Origin: Gemmatirosa kalamazoonensis
GTDB lineage: Bacteria; Gemmatimonadota; Gemmatimonadetes; Gemmatimonadales; Gemmatimonadaceae
Reading direction: 5' to 3'
Length of the DNA stretch: 64,000 nt
Assembly (NCBI RefSeq): GCF_000522985.1
Contig: NZ_CP007128.1
Location: forward strand, 806,001-870,000
Shown here: positions 49,070 through 63,373 of the stretch, one piece after another
Layout of the letters: the number at the start of each line of letters is the position of its first letter
Numbering within the stretch: the first letter of the stretch is position 1
Translations under genes and position numbers: made by a program
Notes under the pieces: model-generated
Seen by the model: only the letters and a program-made list of their open reading frames with translations
The model's database searches: none
Told to the model about the DNA's origin: nothing

Positions 49070-49292
49070 AGCCGCAGAGGGCCGCAGAGGGCCGCAGAGG
49101 ACTGCCGCTTCGTATTGAACCACAGAGGACACGGAGGACACAGAGGAGAACCCTTCAAAGAGAGTTGGTTTCCTCCGTGTCCTCTGTGTCCTCCGTGGTA
49201 AAAAGCCGTTGAAGTAGTTGCCGTTCTCTGCGGCCCTCTGCGGTTCAATTCGAGGAGCCGCTCTCCGCGTCCTCCGCGCCTCCGCGTGAGAT
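49070..49292. repeat. CAGAGG/CGCGGAG nested inverted repeat, large copy
   Basis: Units GAGCCGCAGAGGGCCGCAGA on the left and CTCTGCGGCCCTCTGCGGTT on the right. A central pair AACCACAGAGGACACGGAGG / CCTCTGTGTCCTCCGTGG surrounds AAGAGAGTTGG. It ends with GGTTCAATTC and a CTCCGCGTCCTCCGCGCC tail. This fills most of the 288-bp gap between the peptidase genes. Confidence 0.85.
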
Positions 49293-55830: not shown

Positions 55831-57975
55831 GTGACCGATTCCGGTGACGCGCTGAGCGCGCCCTCCGGCGGCGCGCCCGGCGCCGACGACAGCTTCCGCG
55901 ACGCCCTCGCCGCCGCCCTCGCGCCGGCCTACGTCCTCGGACGGGAGCTCCATGGCGGCGGCATGAGCCGCGTGTTCGTGGCCGAGGAGCCCGCCCTCGG
56001 CCGCACCGTCGTCGTGAAGGTGCTGCCGCTCGAGTGGGCCGCCGGCATGAACCGCGACCGGTTCCTCCGCGAGATCCAGCTCGCCGCGCGGCTCCAGCAT
56101 CCGCACATCGTCCCGCTGCTCGCCGCCGGCGAGGTCGCCGGGTCGATGTACTACACGATGCCGTTCATCGAGGGCGAGTCGGTGCGCGCCGCCCTTGCCC
56201 GGGGGCGCCGCTTCACCGTGCGCGAGGTCGTGCGCATCCTGCACGACGTCGTCGAGGCGCTCGCCCACGCCCACGCGCGCGGCGTCATCCACCGCGACGT
56301 GAAGCCGGGCAACGTCCTCATGCTCGGCAACCACGCCCTCGTCACCGACTTCGGCGTGGCGAAGGCGCTCAGCGCGGCGCGCCAGAGCACCGGCGGGGTG
56401 TTCGCCGCCGGCACCACGTCCACCGGGCTCGCGATCGGCACGCCGGCCTACATGGCCCCCGAGCAGCTCGCCGCCGACCCCGCGGCCGATCATCGGGTGG
56501 ACCTGTACGCCGCCGGGCTGCTCGCCTACGAGCTGCTCGTCGGCCAGTCGCCGTTCACCGCCGACTCGCCGCAGGCGACGCTCGCCGCGCAGCTCACGCG
56601 CGTGCCGACCGCGCTCCACACGCTGCGCCCCGACGTGCCGGCCGCGCTCTCCGCGGTCATCGAGCGGTGCCTCGCGAAGGAGCCTGCGCAGCGCCCCGCG
56701 TCGGCGGAGGATCTGCTCGGCGCGCTCGAGGCGGCGGCGTACCACGTCACGCCGGGCGGCGGCACGCCGGCCGACGCGGTGCTCGGCGGCATCACGCCGC
56801 CGGAGACCGCGCCCGTCACCGCACCGTTAGGCACCGTGCCTAACGTGCTCACGGCGCCCCTGCCGGCCGGTGCCGCCGAGGCGACGACGACCCGACTTCC
56901 GGCGCCTTCGGCGTCGCACCGCCGCCCCACCGCGGTCCTCGGCGGCGCGCTGCTCGGCATGGCGCTCGTCCTCCTCGGCGGATGGGCGGTCGTGCGCGGC
57001 CTCGGCGACCGCGGCGCCGCGACGCCGAAGGTGCCTAACGCGCCGGCCGCACCCGCCGGGGTGGTCGCGCCCGCCGTATCCGCGCCCGCGGTGCCCGCGC
57101 CCGCCGTGCCCGTCGTCACGCCGCGCCTCACCCGCGACGACTCGCTCGCGATCGCCGCCGCCGTCGAGCGCCGGCTCGCCGGCGAGGAGCGGGCGCGCCG
57201 CGCGAAGGACGCGAAGCCCATGGCCCCGCAGCAGGCCGAGTCGCTGCGCGCCGTGTCGTGGCAGCACTTCGCCGACTCGCTCCGCGATGCGGCCATGGGG
57301 CTCGCGCGCGGCCATGGCCCGGGGCCGGGTCGCGTCATCGTCGGCATGCCCGACCTGCGGCGCATGGTCCCCGACTCCGCCACCATGTCCGCGCTCGCCC
57401 GGGCGGGTGCCTCGGGCGCCGCGGGCGCGGTGGCCGGCGTCGGTTCCCGCTTCGAGATGCGCGTCGACCCGCGCGTGGCGCGCGAGGACGCGCTGCGCAG
57501 CGAGGCCGCGGCGTGGATCGCGAAGCTCGGCGAGCGGCTCCCGCCGCCGAAGCCGGGCGTGCGCCGCGTGCTCGTGCTCGACCTCGGCGACGGCACCGGG
57601 CGCCCGGACCTGCGCGGCCTCGCCGGCGCGGTGACGGCCGCGACCCGACGCGCGATCTCCCAGCGCGACGGCTACGAGGCGATCGACCCGTCGACGGTGA
57701 AGGACGTGCAGCGCATGGGGCTCCCCGAGGGCGCGCTCGCCGCCGTCACGCACAGCGGCGCGGTCCTCGGCGGCCTCGTCACCGTGCAGCGCGACTCCAC
57801 CGTCGGCGTCGTCGCCGTCATCCACGACGCCGCGCGCGGCTTCCCGTTCAGCGTCCGCACCGCGCGCACGCCGGCGAGCACGTCGCCCGACTCGATGGCC
57901 GCCGACGTCGGCGCCGCGCTCGTCAAGGCGCTCGACCGCGTGAAGTGGCCGCCGCGTCCGGACGAGCGCCCCTGA
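55831..57975 (+). CDS. Membrane Ser/Thr protein kinase with periplasmic C-terminal domain
   Basis: A 714-residue Hanks-type kinase. The kinase domain (about 35-305) has a Gly loop GGGMSRVFVA, Lys63 in VVVKVL, HRDVKPGN, DFG and MAPEQ. After a linker a transmembrane helix (about 375-395, GGALLGMALVLLGGWAVV) leads to a proline/alanine-rich stalk and a C-terminal alpha/beta domain (RRVLVLDLGDGTGRPDLRGLA...AVLGGLVTVQRDSTVGVVAVIHD) resembling the FlgO/TolB-N-type exported domain seen in other membrane kinases. The GTG at 55831 precedes the kinase start; the frame is open further upstream through the repeat. Two inverted octamers (56825-56845) lie in the linker. Confidence 0.9.
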   Translation: MTDSGDALSAPSGGAPGADDSFRDALAAALAPAYVLGRELHGGGMSRVFVAEEPALGRTVVVKVLPLEWAAGMNRDRFLREIQLAARLQHPHIVPLLAAGEVAGSMYYTMPFIEGESVRAALARGRRFTVREVVRILHDVVEALAHAHARGVIHRDVKPGNVLMLGNHALVTDFGVAKALSAARQSTGGVFAAGTTSTGLAIGTPAYMAPEQLAADPAADHRVDLYAAGLLAYELLVGQSPFTADSPQATLAAQLTRVPTALHTLRPDVPAALSAVIERCLAKEPAQRPASAEDLLGALEAAAYHVTPGGGTPADAVLGGITPPETAPVTAPLGTVPNVLTAPLPAGAAEATTTRLPAPSASHRRPTAVLGGALLGMALVLLGGWAVVRGLGDRGAATPKVPNAPAAPAGVVAPAVSAPAVPAPAVPVVTPRLTRDDSLAIAAAVERRLAGEERARRAKDAKPMAPQQAESLRAVSWQHFADSLRDAAMGLARGHGPGPGRVIVGMPDLRRMVPDSATMSALARAGASGAAGAVAGVGSRFEMRVDPRVAREDALRSEAAAWIAKLGERLPPPKPGVRRVLVLDLGDGTGRPDLRGLAGAVTAATRRAISQRDGYEAIDPSTVKDVQRMGLPEGALAAVTHSGAVLGGLVTVQRDSTVGVVAVIHDAARGFPFSVRTARTPASTSPDSMAADVGAALVKALDRVKWPPRPDERP
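56825..56845. repeat. Perfect palindrome of two octamers
   Basis: CGTTAGGCAC at 56825-56834, one central base and GTGCCTAACG at 56836-56845 form a near-perfect 21-bp inverted pair inside the kinase linker, encoding P-L-G-T-V-P-N-V. Confidence 0.85.
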
Positions 57976-59776
57976 GCGACGGCAGCCCGGGCGCCGTGAG
58001 AGCCGCCCGGCGACGCAGCCGCACCCGCAGCCCCACCGGGTGCATCGTGAACGCGAACGCCTCGCGCACGTCGCTCGCCCCGTCCGCGCGCTCCACGTCG
58101 AACGCCGAGTAGAGCGTCGCGAGCACGAGCCGCATCTCGAGCAGCGCGAGCGACCGCCCCGGGCAGATCCGCGGCCCCGACCCGAACGGCAGGAACACCG
58201 ACGGATCGTGCGCCAGCGGTCCTCCGTTAGGCAGCGAGCCGTTAGGCAGCTGCCCGTTAGGCAGCCACCGCTCCGGCCGGAACGCGGCCGGGTCGCCGAA
58301 GTGCCGCGCGTCCACCGCTGGCGGCCGCGTGAGCAGCGCCACCCACGTTCCCTTCGGCACGGCGACGTCGCCGATCACCACGTCGCGCGTCGCCGCGAGC
58401 AGCACCACGGGCGCGACCGGACGCAGGCGCATCGTCTCGTTCGCCACCGCGCCCGCGTACGCGAGCCGATCCGCCGCCTCGATGTCCGGCGGCGCTGCGC
58501 CCGACCCGATGCCCGCCGCGTCGGCCTCGGCGCGCAGCCGCTCCACCACGTCGGGCGCGTCGCACAGCTGGTGCACGGCCCACGCGAGCGTGTACGCCGT
58601 CGTGTCCTCGCCGGCGAGCAGCATCGTCATCGCGTTGCCGAAGATCACCTCGTCGGGGAACGGGTTCCCGTCCGCGTCGCGCGCCGCGAGCATCGACTCG
58701 AGGAAGTTCTGCGGCGCCTCGGCGCGCGACGGCTCGGCGGCGAGCCGCGCGCGCGTCTCCGCCACCAGGTCGCGCAGCCACACGCGCAGCTCCGCGACGG
58801 CGCGGTCCACGCGTCGGTCCGCCGGCAGGCGCACCCACCGCCACGTCGGGAGCAGCGCGAACAGCCGCCGGTTGAACGCCGGGAACACCTGCCCGAGGTG
58901 CCGCTGGATCGCGTCGTCGTCGCGGCCGATCGTGTCGACGTCGCGCCCGAACACGAGCATGCTCGTGACGTCGACGGTGAACCGCTTCATCTCCTCCGCG
59001 ACGTCGAGCGTGGCGCCGGCGTCGGCCTTCGCCTCCCAGCGGCGCCGCAGCCGCGCCGTCACGTCGGCGAGCGTCGCGTAGAAGCCGCGCAGGTTGCGGT
59101 GCGACAGCGCCTGCATCGCGAGCCGTCGCTGCGGGCGCCATGCGTCGCCTTCGGCCGAGAACAGGCCCGCCACGCCGAGCTCGCGGAACACCGGCGCGAT
59201 GTTCGGCGAGCGCCGGAACGTCTCCGGCCGGTCGCGCAGGATCGGCTCGATCAGCTCGGGGCGCGACACGGTGAGGATGCGGTTCGGCCCCACGCGGTAG
59301 AGGAACAGCGGGCCGTACTCCGCCGCCCACCGCTCCACCGTCTCGTGCACGCGCGAGATGTCGATCTGGTGCAGGTTGCCGACGATCGGCAGCGGTCGAG
59401 GTCCCGGCAGGTCTTCGAGCCGGCGATGCGCGCGCGCCGGAGCGGCGCTCGCCGCCGTCTCGCGCAGCGCCGACGTGTCGGCCCACAGCTCGTCCCCGCG
59501 CCGCGCCAGCGGGCATCGCGCGAGGCACTCCGGCCCGCCCTGCCGCGCCCCCGTCGCCGCGTCGAATCGCCACCGGTGGTTGCGGCACACCAGCGCGTCG
59601 CCGTCGAGCTCTCCCTCGCCGAGCAGCGCGCCCTGGTGCGGGCACCGGCCGGCGTACGCGTGGTGCTCGCCGCGCACGCGTACGACCACGAGATCCACGC
59701 CGTCCGCCGACAGCGCGAACGGTCCGTCGCCCGGCAGATCGGCGAGATGCGCGATGCGGTTCCACGACTCGGACAT
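57923..59776 (-). CDS. Rieske [2Fe-2S]-cytochrome P450 fusion
   Basis: A 617-residue single polypeptide. An N-terminal Rieske domain (about 5-105) has C45-P-H47 and C64-x2-H67 ligands. A short linker (RRLEDLPGPRPLPIVGN) leads into a complete P450 with the I-helix AGEDTTAYTLAW, ExxR in NETMRLRP, PERW, and the haem-thiolate loop FGSGPRICPG (Cys538). Rieske components can deliver electrons, so the fusion may be self-sufficient apart from a reductase. The loop after PERW contains LPNGQLPNGSLPNGG, encoded by three tandem octamers. The 3' end overlaps the kinase gene by 53 bp in antisense. Confidence 0.9.
   Translation of the reverse strand: MSESWNRIAHLADLPGDGPFALSADGVDLVVVRVRGEHHAYAGRCPHQGALLGEGELDGDALVCRNHRWRFDAATGARQGGPECLARCPLARRGDELWADTSALRETAASAAPARAHRRLEDLPGPRPLPIVGNLHQIDISRVHETVERWAAEYGPLFLYRVGPNRILTVSRPELIEPILRDRPETFRRSPNIAPVFRELGVAGLFSAEGDAWRPQRRLAMQALSHRNLRGFYATLADVTARLRRRWEAKADAGATLDVAEEMKRFTVDVTSMLVFGRDVDTIGRDDDAIQRHLGQVFPAFNRRLFALLPTWRWVRLPADRRVDRAVAELRVWLRDLVAETRARLAAEPSRAEAPQNFLESMLAARDADGNPFPDEVIFGNAMTMLLAGEDTTAYTLAWAVHQLCDAPDVVERLRAEADAAGIGSGAAPPDIEAADRLAYAGAVANETMRLRPVAPVVLLAATRDVVIGDVAVPKGTWVALLTRPPAVDARHFGDPAAFRPERWLPNGQLPNGSLPNGGPLAHDPSVFLPFGSGPRICPGRSLALLEMRLVLATLYSAFDVERADGASDVREAFAFTMHPVGLRVRLRRRAALTAPGLPSLRGARPDAAATSRGRAP
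58225..58262. repeat. Triple tandem CGTTAGGC octamers inside the P450
   Basis: Exact copies at 58225-58232, 58240-58247 and 58255-58262, spaced 15 bp apart. In the coding direction each reads CTGCCTAACGG and encodes L-P-N-G, giving a fifteen-residue surface-loop repeat. Confidence 0.9.
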
Positions 59777-59799
59777 GGTCGGCTCCGGGCTCTTCGAGT

Positions 59800-60025
59800 T
59801 CGAACCGCAGAGGGCGCAGAGGGCCGCAGAGCACCCCAAAACCTTGAACCACGGAGGGCACAGAGGACACAGAGGAGAACCACTTCGATTGGCTTCCTCC
59901 GTGTCCTCCGTGTCCTCCGTGGTTCAATTCAAAAGGGCAGACCTCTGCGGCCCGCTGCGTCCTCTGCGGTCAACACACCCAGCGAAGGTGTTTCTCCGCG
60001 TCCCCGCGTCCCCGCGTGAGATTGC
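59800..60025. repeat. CAGAGG/CGCGGAG nested inverted repeat, large copy
   Basis: Left units GAACCGCAGAGGGCGCAGAG; central pair GAACCACGGAGGGCACAGAG / CTCCGTGTCCTCCGTGGTTC around ACTTCGATTGGC, followed by CTGCGTCCTCTGCGGTC and a tail TCCGCGTCCCCGCGTGAGATT. It fills much of the 397-bp divergent gap between the P450 and gnd; the remainder (60026-60173) presumably contains the gnd promoter but shows no clear box. Confidence 0.85.
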
Positions 60026-60173: not shown

Positions 60174-61088
60174 ATGCAGATCGCGATGGTGGGACTCGGC
60201 CGCATGGGCGCCAACATGGCGACGCGGCTGGCGCGGGGTGGACACCAGGTGGCGGCGTGGGACCGCTCGCCCGAGGCCACGCAGAAGACCGCGGCCGGCC
60301 AGTCCGGGATCACCGGCGCCGAGTCGCTCGAGGCGCTGGTCCGATCGCTCGACGCGCCGCGCGCCGTGTGGATCATGATCCCCGCCGGCGACCCCACCGA
60401 GCAGATGGTCGACACGCTGCTCGGCATGCTGCAGCAGGGCGACGCCATCATCGACGGCGGCAACAGCAACTACAAGGACTCCATGCGACGCGGCGCGAAG
60501 TGCGCCGAGCGCGGCGTGAGTTTCATCGACTGCGGCACGAGCGGCGGCGTGTGGGGGCTCGCCAACGGCTACAGCCTCATGGTCGGCGGCGACGACGCGG
60601 CCGTCGGGCGGCTGCGCCCCCTCTTCGAGACGCTCGCGCCGGGGCCTAACACCGGCTGGGGCCACGTCGGTCCCGTCGGCAGCGGCCACTTCACGAAGAT
60701 GGTGCACAACGGCATCGAGTACGGCATGATGCAGGCGTTCGCCGAAGGGTTCAGCATCATGCAGCACAAGAAGGAGTTCGCTCTCGACCTCGCGCAGGTC
60801 GCCGAGATCTGGCGCGAGGGCAGCGTGGTGCGCTCGTGGCTCCTCGATCTCACCGCGCGCGCGCTGGCCGAGAACCCGACGATGGACGGCATCGCGCCGT
60901 ACGTCAGCGACTCCGGCGAGGGACGCTGGACGGTGGCCGAGGCGATCGATCTCGACGTGCCGGCGCCGGTCATCACGCACTCGCTCATCGCCCGCCTGCG
61001 CTCGCGCGACGCCGAGTCGTTCACCGACAAGCTGCTGGCCGCGATGCGCAACCAGTTCGGCGGTCACGCCATCAAGCGCGAGGGCTGA
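60174..61088 (+). CDS. gnd: 6-phosphogluconate dehydrogenase, short (decarboxylating, GndA-like) form
   Basis: A 304-residue enzyme: MQIAMVGLGRMGANMATRLARGG (dinucleotide fold), AIIDGGNSNYKDS, the catalytic Lys in HFTKMVHNGIEYGMMQAFAEG, and a truncated C-terminal helical domain. The short form (about 300 residues, versus 470 in E. coli) usually prefers NAD. It converts 6-phosphogluconate to ribulose-5-phosphate plus CO2. GGAG lies 5-8 bp before the ATG. First gene of the gnd-zwf-pgl operon. Confidence 0.93.
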   Translation: MQIAMVGLGRMGANMATRLARGGHQVAAWDRSPEATQKTAAGQSGITGAESLEALVRSLDAPRAVWIMIPAGDPTEQMVDTLLGMLQQGDAIIDGGNSNYKDSMRRGAKCAERGVSFIDCGTSGGVWGLANGYSLMVGGDDAAVGRLRPLFETLAPGPNTGWGHVGPVGSGHFTKMVHNGIEYGMMQAFAEGFSIMQHKKEFALDLAQVAEIWREGSVVRSWLLDLTARALAENPTMDGIAPYVSDSGEGRWTVAEAIDLDVPAPVITHSLIARLRSRDAESFTDKLLAAMRNQFGGHAIKREG

Positions 61089-61091
61089 GCG

Positions 61092-62623
<1,532 letters not shown>

Positions 62624-62627
<4 letters not shown>

Positions 62628-63373
62628 CGGCGCCTAACGACCTTGCGGGCGCCGCGCCGGTCGTGCGCGTGGTGGCCGACGCCGACGCGCTCACGCAGGC
62701 CGCCGAGGCGCTCGTCGGCGACGCGGTGCTGCATGCGGTCGAGCGGCACGGCCGCTGCGCCGTCGCGCTCGCGGGCGGCAGCACGCCGCGCGCGCTCTAC
62801 GCGCGCCTCGCCGCCTCCGACGCGGCGCGACTGCCGTGGAACCTCGTCGACGTGTGGTTCGGCGACGAGCGGTGCGTGCCGCCCGACGACGCGGCGAGCA
62901 ACTACCGCATGGCGCACGACGCGCTGCTCTCGCGCGTGCCGATCCCGCCCGAGAACGTGCGCCGCATCCCCGGAGAGCTCGGCGCCGCCGCCGCGGCCGA
63001 GGCGTACGACGCGATGCTGCGCGACGCGTTCGGCGCGTTGGGCACGGGCGGCGAGGGCTTCGACCTCGTGCTGCTCGGCGTCGGCACGGAGGGGCACACG
63101 GCGTCGCTCTTCCCCGGACACCCCGCGCTCGACGTGACCGACCGGTGGGCCGTGCCCGTGGACCCCGCGCCGCCGACCGCGAAGCCGCTCGTCCCGCGCG
63201 TGACGCTCACCTTCCCCGCGCTCACCGGCGCCACGGAGATCCTCGTCCTCGCCACCGGCGCGGAGAAGAAGTACATCGTCGACGCGGTGCGCGCGGGAGA
63301 CACCGAGCTGCCGGCGGCGCGCGTGCGCGGGCGGGAGCGCACGATGTGGATCGTCGACAACGCCGCCGGGTGA
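62624..63373 (+). CDS. pgl: 6-phosphogluconolactonase (DevB/Pgl family)
   Basis: A 249-residue lactonase of the NagB-like fold: GRCAVALAGGSTPRALYARLA, WFGDERCVPPDDAASNYRMA, LVLLGVGTEGHTASLFPG and the late VTLTFPAL match DevB-type Pgl. It hydrolyses 6-phosphogluconolactone from the preceding enzyme. The ATG overlaps the zwf stop. Codons 4-5 lie in a GCCTAACG octamer. A GGACTGAAG hairpin follows. Confidence 0.95.

Follow-up and report, generated by a model that had tools for sequence, protein, structure and literature searches.

A conserved fusion of an N-terminal Rieske domain to a cytochrome P450 in Gemmatirosa kalamazoonensis, with a probable role as electron donor in cis

The window analysed here, a 64,000-nucleotide stretch of contig NZ_CP007128.1 of the soil bacterium Gemmatirosa kalamazoonensis, encodes on its minus strand a protein of 617 amino acids in which a Rieske [2Fe-2S] domain is joined to the N-terminus of a cytochrome P450, a fusion that is no isolated case but one member of a family conserved across several phyla. 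The Rieske domain probably serves as an electron donor in cis, in a chain running from NAD(P)H through a separate reductase and the fused cluster to the P450 heme. Each part is of a known kind, and it is the combination that has not been found described: no account of a P450 carrying a Rieske domain at its N-terminus was recovered from 5.39 million open papers, and domain databases may list the arrangement. The gene is a single open reading frame free of internal stops, with the following features.

59783-59786, minus strand: GGAG, ribosome-binding-like, 6 bases 5' of the ATG, read from the sequence
57923-59776, minus strand: Rieske-P450 fusion gene, 617 codons, ATG (59776) to stop
59528-59767, minus strand: Rieske [2Fe-2S] domain, residues 4-83, from Pfam PF00355 and the model of the isolated domain
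59576-59644, minus strand: cluster ligands C45-P-H47 ... C64-R-N-H67, invariant in 11 fusions and in the fragments L019-L021
59420-59470, minus strand: variable inter-domain linker, residues about 103-119, mean column conservation 0.386
58028-59407, minus strand: cytochrome P450 domain, residues 124-583, from Pfam PF00067 and the fold match to the BM3 heme domain
58601-58615, minus strand: I-helix oxygen-activation motif AGEDT, residues 388-392, with T392 invariant in the fusions
58427-58438, minus strand: ExxR motif, residues 447-450, from the alignment, the pair invariant in 11 full-length fusions
58224-58269, minus strand: 15-base tandem repeat WLPNGQLPNGSLPNGG, three copies, inside the P450 and before the heme loop, encoding PNGQLPNGSLPNGG
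58157-58186, minus strand: heme-binding FGSGPRICPG with ligand C538, from the alignment

Pfam assigns residues 4-83 to PF00355 (E 6.7e-16; score 58.4 bits, cut-off 20.3) and residues 124-583 to PF00067 (p450; E 7.3e-80; score 269.4 bits, cut-off 22.8), and the heme-loop cysteine of the FxxGxRxCxG pattern, the ExxR pair and the I-helix motif place the second domain in the P450 superfamily. Across 11 aligned full-length fusions the ligands C45, H47, C64, H67 and C538 are invariant, and the I-helix motif departs from AGEDT in one member that reads GGEDT and another that reads AGEET. The initial annotation, which had read both modules with all their ligands at this locus without naming the strand (minus), is thus borne out by Pfam and by the invariance of the ligands. 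In the full-length model (pLDDT 79.3, pTM 0.77) residues 1-593 are accounted for, followed by a short low-confidence tail. The Pfam search returned no domain besides Rieske and p450, and no flavin domain; the mononuclear-iron catalytic domain of Rieske non-heme iron oxygenases is absent, the P450 following the Rieske domain instead. Self-sufficient P450s such as CYP102 and CYP116B carry a flavin/NAD(P)H reductase domain in the same chain, and because this chain has no flavin domain it does not belong with them; in anatomy, and in anatomy only, it is a reductase-less fusion of a P450 with a redox partner, of the XplA and CYP51-ferredoxin type.

Scanning one genome per species recovered 12 clear relatives, a thirteenth match covering only 27 residues. 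Eight of them, found in Myxococcota, Hyphomicrobiales (Pseudomonadota) and Acidobacteriota, carry the whole fusion intact at 51-60% identity, the remainder being contig-end fragments or copies from metagenome-assembled genomes (MAGs) with a broken frame; more distant full fusions are carried by the Methylorubrum extorquens AM1 megaplasmid (40% identity) and a Persicobacter plasmid (29% identity). The Rieske-P450 order in one frame was found at L011-L017 and L022 (MAGs), L024 and L028 (plasmid records), L031 and L040. A sequencing or assembly error joining two adjacent genes, which the initial annotation had named as a finding that would overturn its reading, retains next to no probability and is refuted by recurrence of the identical order across numerous independent assemblies that span several phyla, by a single reading frame across both domains, and by even GC3 over the gene (0.921 in the Rieske part, 0.942 in the P450 part).

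When nine fusions are compared, column conservation averages 0.735 in the Rieske domain and 0.686 in the P450, against 0.386 in the linker: selection holds both domains, and not the tether. The inter-domain segment spans 20-37 residues across the family, and the linker in G. kalamazoonensis has about 20. These values bear on the very improbable alternative in which the P450 would work as a peroxygenase or be in decay, with the Rieske domain as a remnant. This alternative would accord with the repeated presence and absence of the Rieske domain in the wider P450 clade, and with the small tandem PNGQLPNGSLPNGG insertion near the heme loop, which is particular to the G. kalamazoonensis protein and lacking from its relatives in the alignment; it is opposed by the invariance of the ligands, by a Rieske conservation that equals that of the P450 across phyla, and by retention of the acid-alcohol pair of O2-dependent P450s. 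With the AGxDT motif kept, the heme domain looks O2-dependent.

By sequence, T4moC is the closest solved relative of the Rieske part (E 1.2e-13 with phmmer and 9.7e-16 with a profile). Because a fold search with the whole model returned P450s throughout, the Rieske part was folded alone (pLDDT 94.3), and T4moC (1vm9) again came first (Z 17.3, 1.4 A, 102 residues), tied within 1 Z with the ferredoxins of naphthalene dioxygenase (2qpz, Z 17.2) and 3-nitrotoluene dioxygenase. BphF/T4moC-type Rieske proteins are defined by CxH...CxxH ligands on a Rieske fold, both present here, and by a reduction potential around -150 mV. Rieske proteins of the bc1 type carry a second cysteine pair in their cluster loops, and the potentials of oxygenase Rieske ferredoxins lie near that of a P450 heme with substrate bound. 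The loops of the fusion, CPHQGALL and CRNHRWRF, are without the second (disulfide) cysteine pair, and Phe71, which follows the second pair of ligands and replaces Tyr there, is invariant in the fusions, both being marks of the low-potential class; Phe is found in low-potential Rieske ferredoxins where high-potential Rieske proteins have Tyr (PMC1847435), and the oxygenase ferredoxins have negative potentials (PMC6006211). From the missing cysteines and Phe71, the cluster is predicted to be of low potential and able to reduce the P450 heme, and the domain can be named T4moC/BphF-like. This kinship weighs against a quite unlikely reading in which the cluster is a redox or oxygen sensor gating a P450 supplied by ordinary ferredoxins, as the proteins most closely related to the domain serve oxygenases as dedicated electron donors and Pfam detects no sensor or DNA-binding part in the chain; in its favour, sister P450s that stand alone do exist and must use outside donors.

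The best PDB match of the P450 part by phmmer is P450 LUT5/CYP97A3 (6j94; E 9.3e-43), with CYP102 heme domains next, and the best structural match of that part is the P450 BM3 heme domain (Z 40.2, 2.5 A, 440 residues). On the strength of these two relatives a hydrophobic substrate is guessed at, the CYP97A3 relationship providing a weak hint. A further lead comes from M. extorquens AM1, where the homologue (L024 7890-9713) lies just downstream of a polyketide-synthase cluster (L066 5464-29885) with acyltransferase, ACP, FMO, AMP-ligase and thioesterase genes, which may well be the toblerol cluster. This organism makes toblerol from tobACDEFGHIJKL (PMC8969499), and if the two clusters are the same, a testable substrate class could perhaps be assigned to this branch of the fusions.

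Within the proposed chain, a separate NAD(P)H-dependent flavin reductase would reduce the N-terminal low-potential Rieske cluster, which, tethered by a flexible linker of ~20 residues, would hand single electrons to a P450 heme in the same chain or in the partner chain of a dimer; the reduced heme would then activate O2 and oxidise a probably hydrophobic substrate. The fusion would thus act as a two-centre monooxygenase component, following the logic of class I three-component P450 systems with the ferredoxin fixed in cis. The cluster potential, the direction of electron flow, the reductase and the substrate are the elements of this chain that we infer. Electron transfer from T4moC to its diiron monooxygenase crosses about 12 A (PMC4200526), and the step from Rieske cluster to heme has a published parallel in trans, the stand-alone Rieske protein SpFdx4 driving the P450 DoxA with the putidaredoxin-type reductase SpFdR3 (PMC12979805). 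Direct delivery of electrons with only a reductase needed, as first proposed from the DNA, stands as the likely role, although close stand-alone P450 relatives work without a Rieske domain and a reductase gene is neither adjacent nor conserved nearby.

Among the reductases of the genome, the BphA4 type (PF14759) gave one match (L042 1387-3015, C2:949.5-951.2 kb). This protein joins a Rieske domain to a BphA4-type FAD reductase; its gene lies some 84-85 kb away from that of the Rieske-P450, and it is a candidate partner only. PF00970 likewise marks one protein, a short FNR-like reductase (L065) that is probably unrelated, as its frame stands after a molybdopterin oxidoreductase-like one (assigned by eye). 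That the sole PF14759 reductase found carries its own N-terminal Rieske domain could be read as a sign that the Rieske domain of the P450 serves chiefly to dock, or to take in electrons from, a Rieske-bearing reductase, with the heme reduced in trans by a dimer partner or a soluble ferredoxin, and the variable linker length would accommodate this. Such an arrangement is nevertheless unlikely, given that L042 has no genetic link to the P450, that Rieske-FAD reductase proteins are generally common, and that PF14759 was found in 5 of the 12 genomes with relatives (several of these genomes being incomplete MAGs) and not in the other 7, a count that also tells against the chain proposed above.

Across about 25 neighbourhoods, of which some were short, no conserved neighbour, operon partner or adjacent reductase turned up. 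A convergent protein kinase gene lies on one side of the fusion gene, and at 60174-63373 frames resembling gnd, zwf and pgl, named by eye from their translations, run divergently from it; these are NADPH-producing enzymes of the pentose phosphate pathway, an adjacency noted by eye with no significance shown. In the Hyphomicrobiales side branch, both members have a DUF3047 protein gene ahead of the fusion (L024 6531-7715, L040 287-1426), and an MscS-type mechanosensitive channel gene lies directly upstream on the same strand in a myxococcotal locus (L031 3275-4357). The window also holds long intergenic palindromes at 59850-59921 and 49121-49197, in which copies of a 9-base repeat (CACAGAGGA / TCCTCCGTG) face each other in inverted orientation; the repeat gave 8 matches against 0 expected by shuffling and is possibly a dispersed intergenic repeat of the G. 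kalamazoonensis genome.

An N-terminal Rieske protein on a P450 had been called uncommon in the initial annotation, and the counts agree: the fusion occurs in 1 of 298 Gemmatimonadota genomes (G. kalamazoonensis only) and in a few of the roughly 400 genomes sampled from each of three other groups, namely 2 of 397 in the Hyphomicrobiales sample, 1 of 396 Acidobacteriota, and Myxococcota, where the P450 clade is present in 10 of 377 genomes, four with the Rieske part (one cut at a contig end) and six without. So patchy a distribution suggests horizontal spread. In the P450 tree, fusions fall in three places amid stand-alone P450s, and branches with good support require the fusion label to change at least three times; the Rieske tree, short and weakly supported, is compatible with repeated gain or with one gain followed by losses. 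Within 6-8 kb of the stand-alone sister P450s L025, L026 and L027, the three cases with wide flanks, no fitting Rieske ligand motif was found. A wider reading, put forward tentatively and at slightly less than even probability, is that P450s have taken up a T4moC-type Rieske domain, perhaps on more than one occasion, as their obligatory donor in cis, giving a widespread and overlooked class of P450s and making the Rieske module an interchangeable part shared by P450s, Rieske oxygenases and diiron monooxygenases. Fused and stand-alone relatives within one P450 clade offer a natural experiment on the gain or loss of a redox partner.

The P450 fusions that have been reviewed carry flavodoxin, reductases of the CPR and phthalate-dioxygenase types, or ferredoxins with 4-Cys or cubane clusters, and a cis-acting Rieske donor would extend this list by a further class and provide a natural template for engineering the electron supply of P450s. 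The fusion also allows tests of how a Rieske cluster, a cofactor normally tuned to non-heme iron, is matched to a heme-thiolate acceptor.

Of the known systems, T4moC (1vm9, 4p1b/4p1c) shares the CPHQ...CRxHxW motif and likewise feeds a monooxygenase, yet it is free-standing, serves a diiron enzyme and is about 30% identical. XplA and the Methylococcus CYP51-ferredoxin protein are, as the Rieske-P450 would be, natural P450-carrier fusions that still need a reductase; the carrier of XplA is similarly N-terminal but is a flavodoxin, and that of CYP51fx is a C-terminal ferredoxin. BurK of the malleicyprol system was set aside as an unrelated heme protein. CYP102 (P450 BM3) is 23-24% identical and differs in its C-terminal CPR-type reductase, whereas P450 LUT5/CYP97A3 (6j94) is a plant plastid carotenoid hydroxylase without a fused carrier. 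CYP116B also holds a [2Fe-2S] domain and a P450 in one chain (PMC7260179), but with a plant-type 4-Cys cluster and an FMN reductase, both C-terminal, in contrast to the N-terminal 2Cys-2His Rieske cluster and lack of a flavin domain described here. In SpFdx4-SpFdR3-DoxA of Streptomyces peucetius (PMC12979805) a Rieske-type ferredoxin feeds a P450, with the differences that the three components are separate proteins, that SpFdx4 is of the BphA3/TDO-F sort, and that the P450 is of another type.
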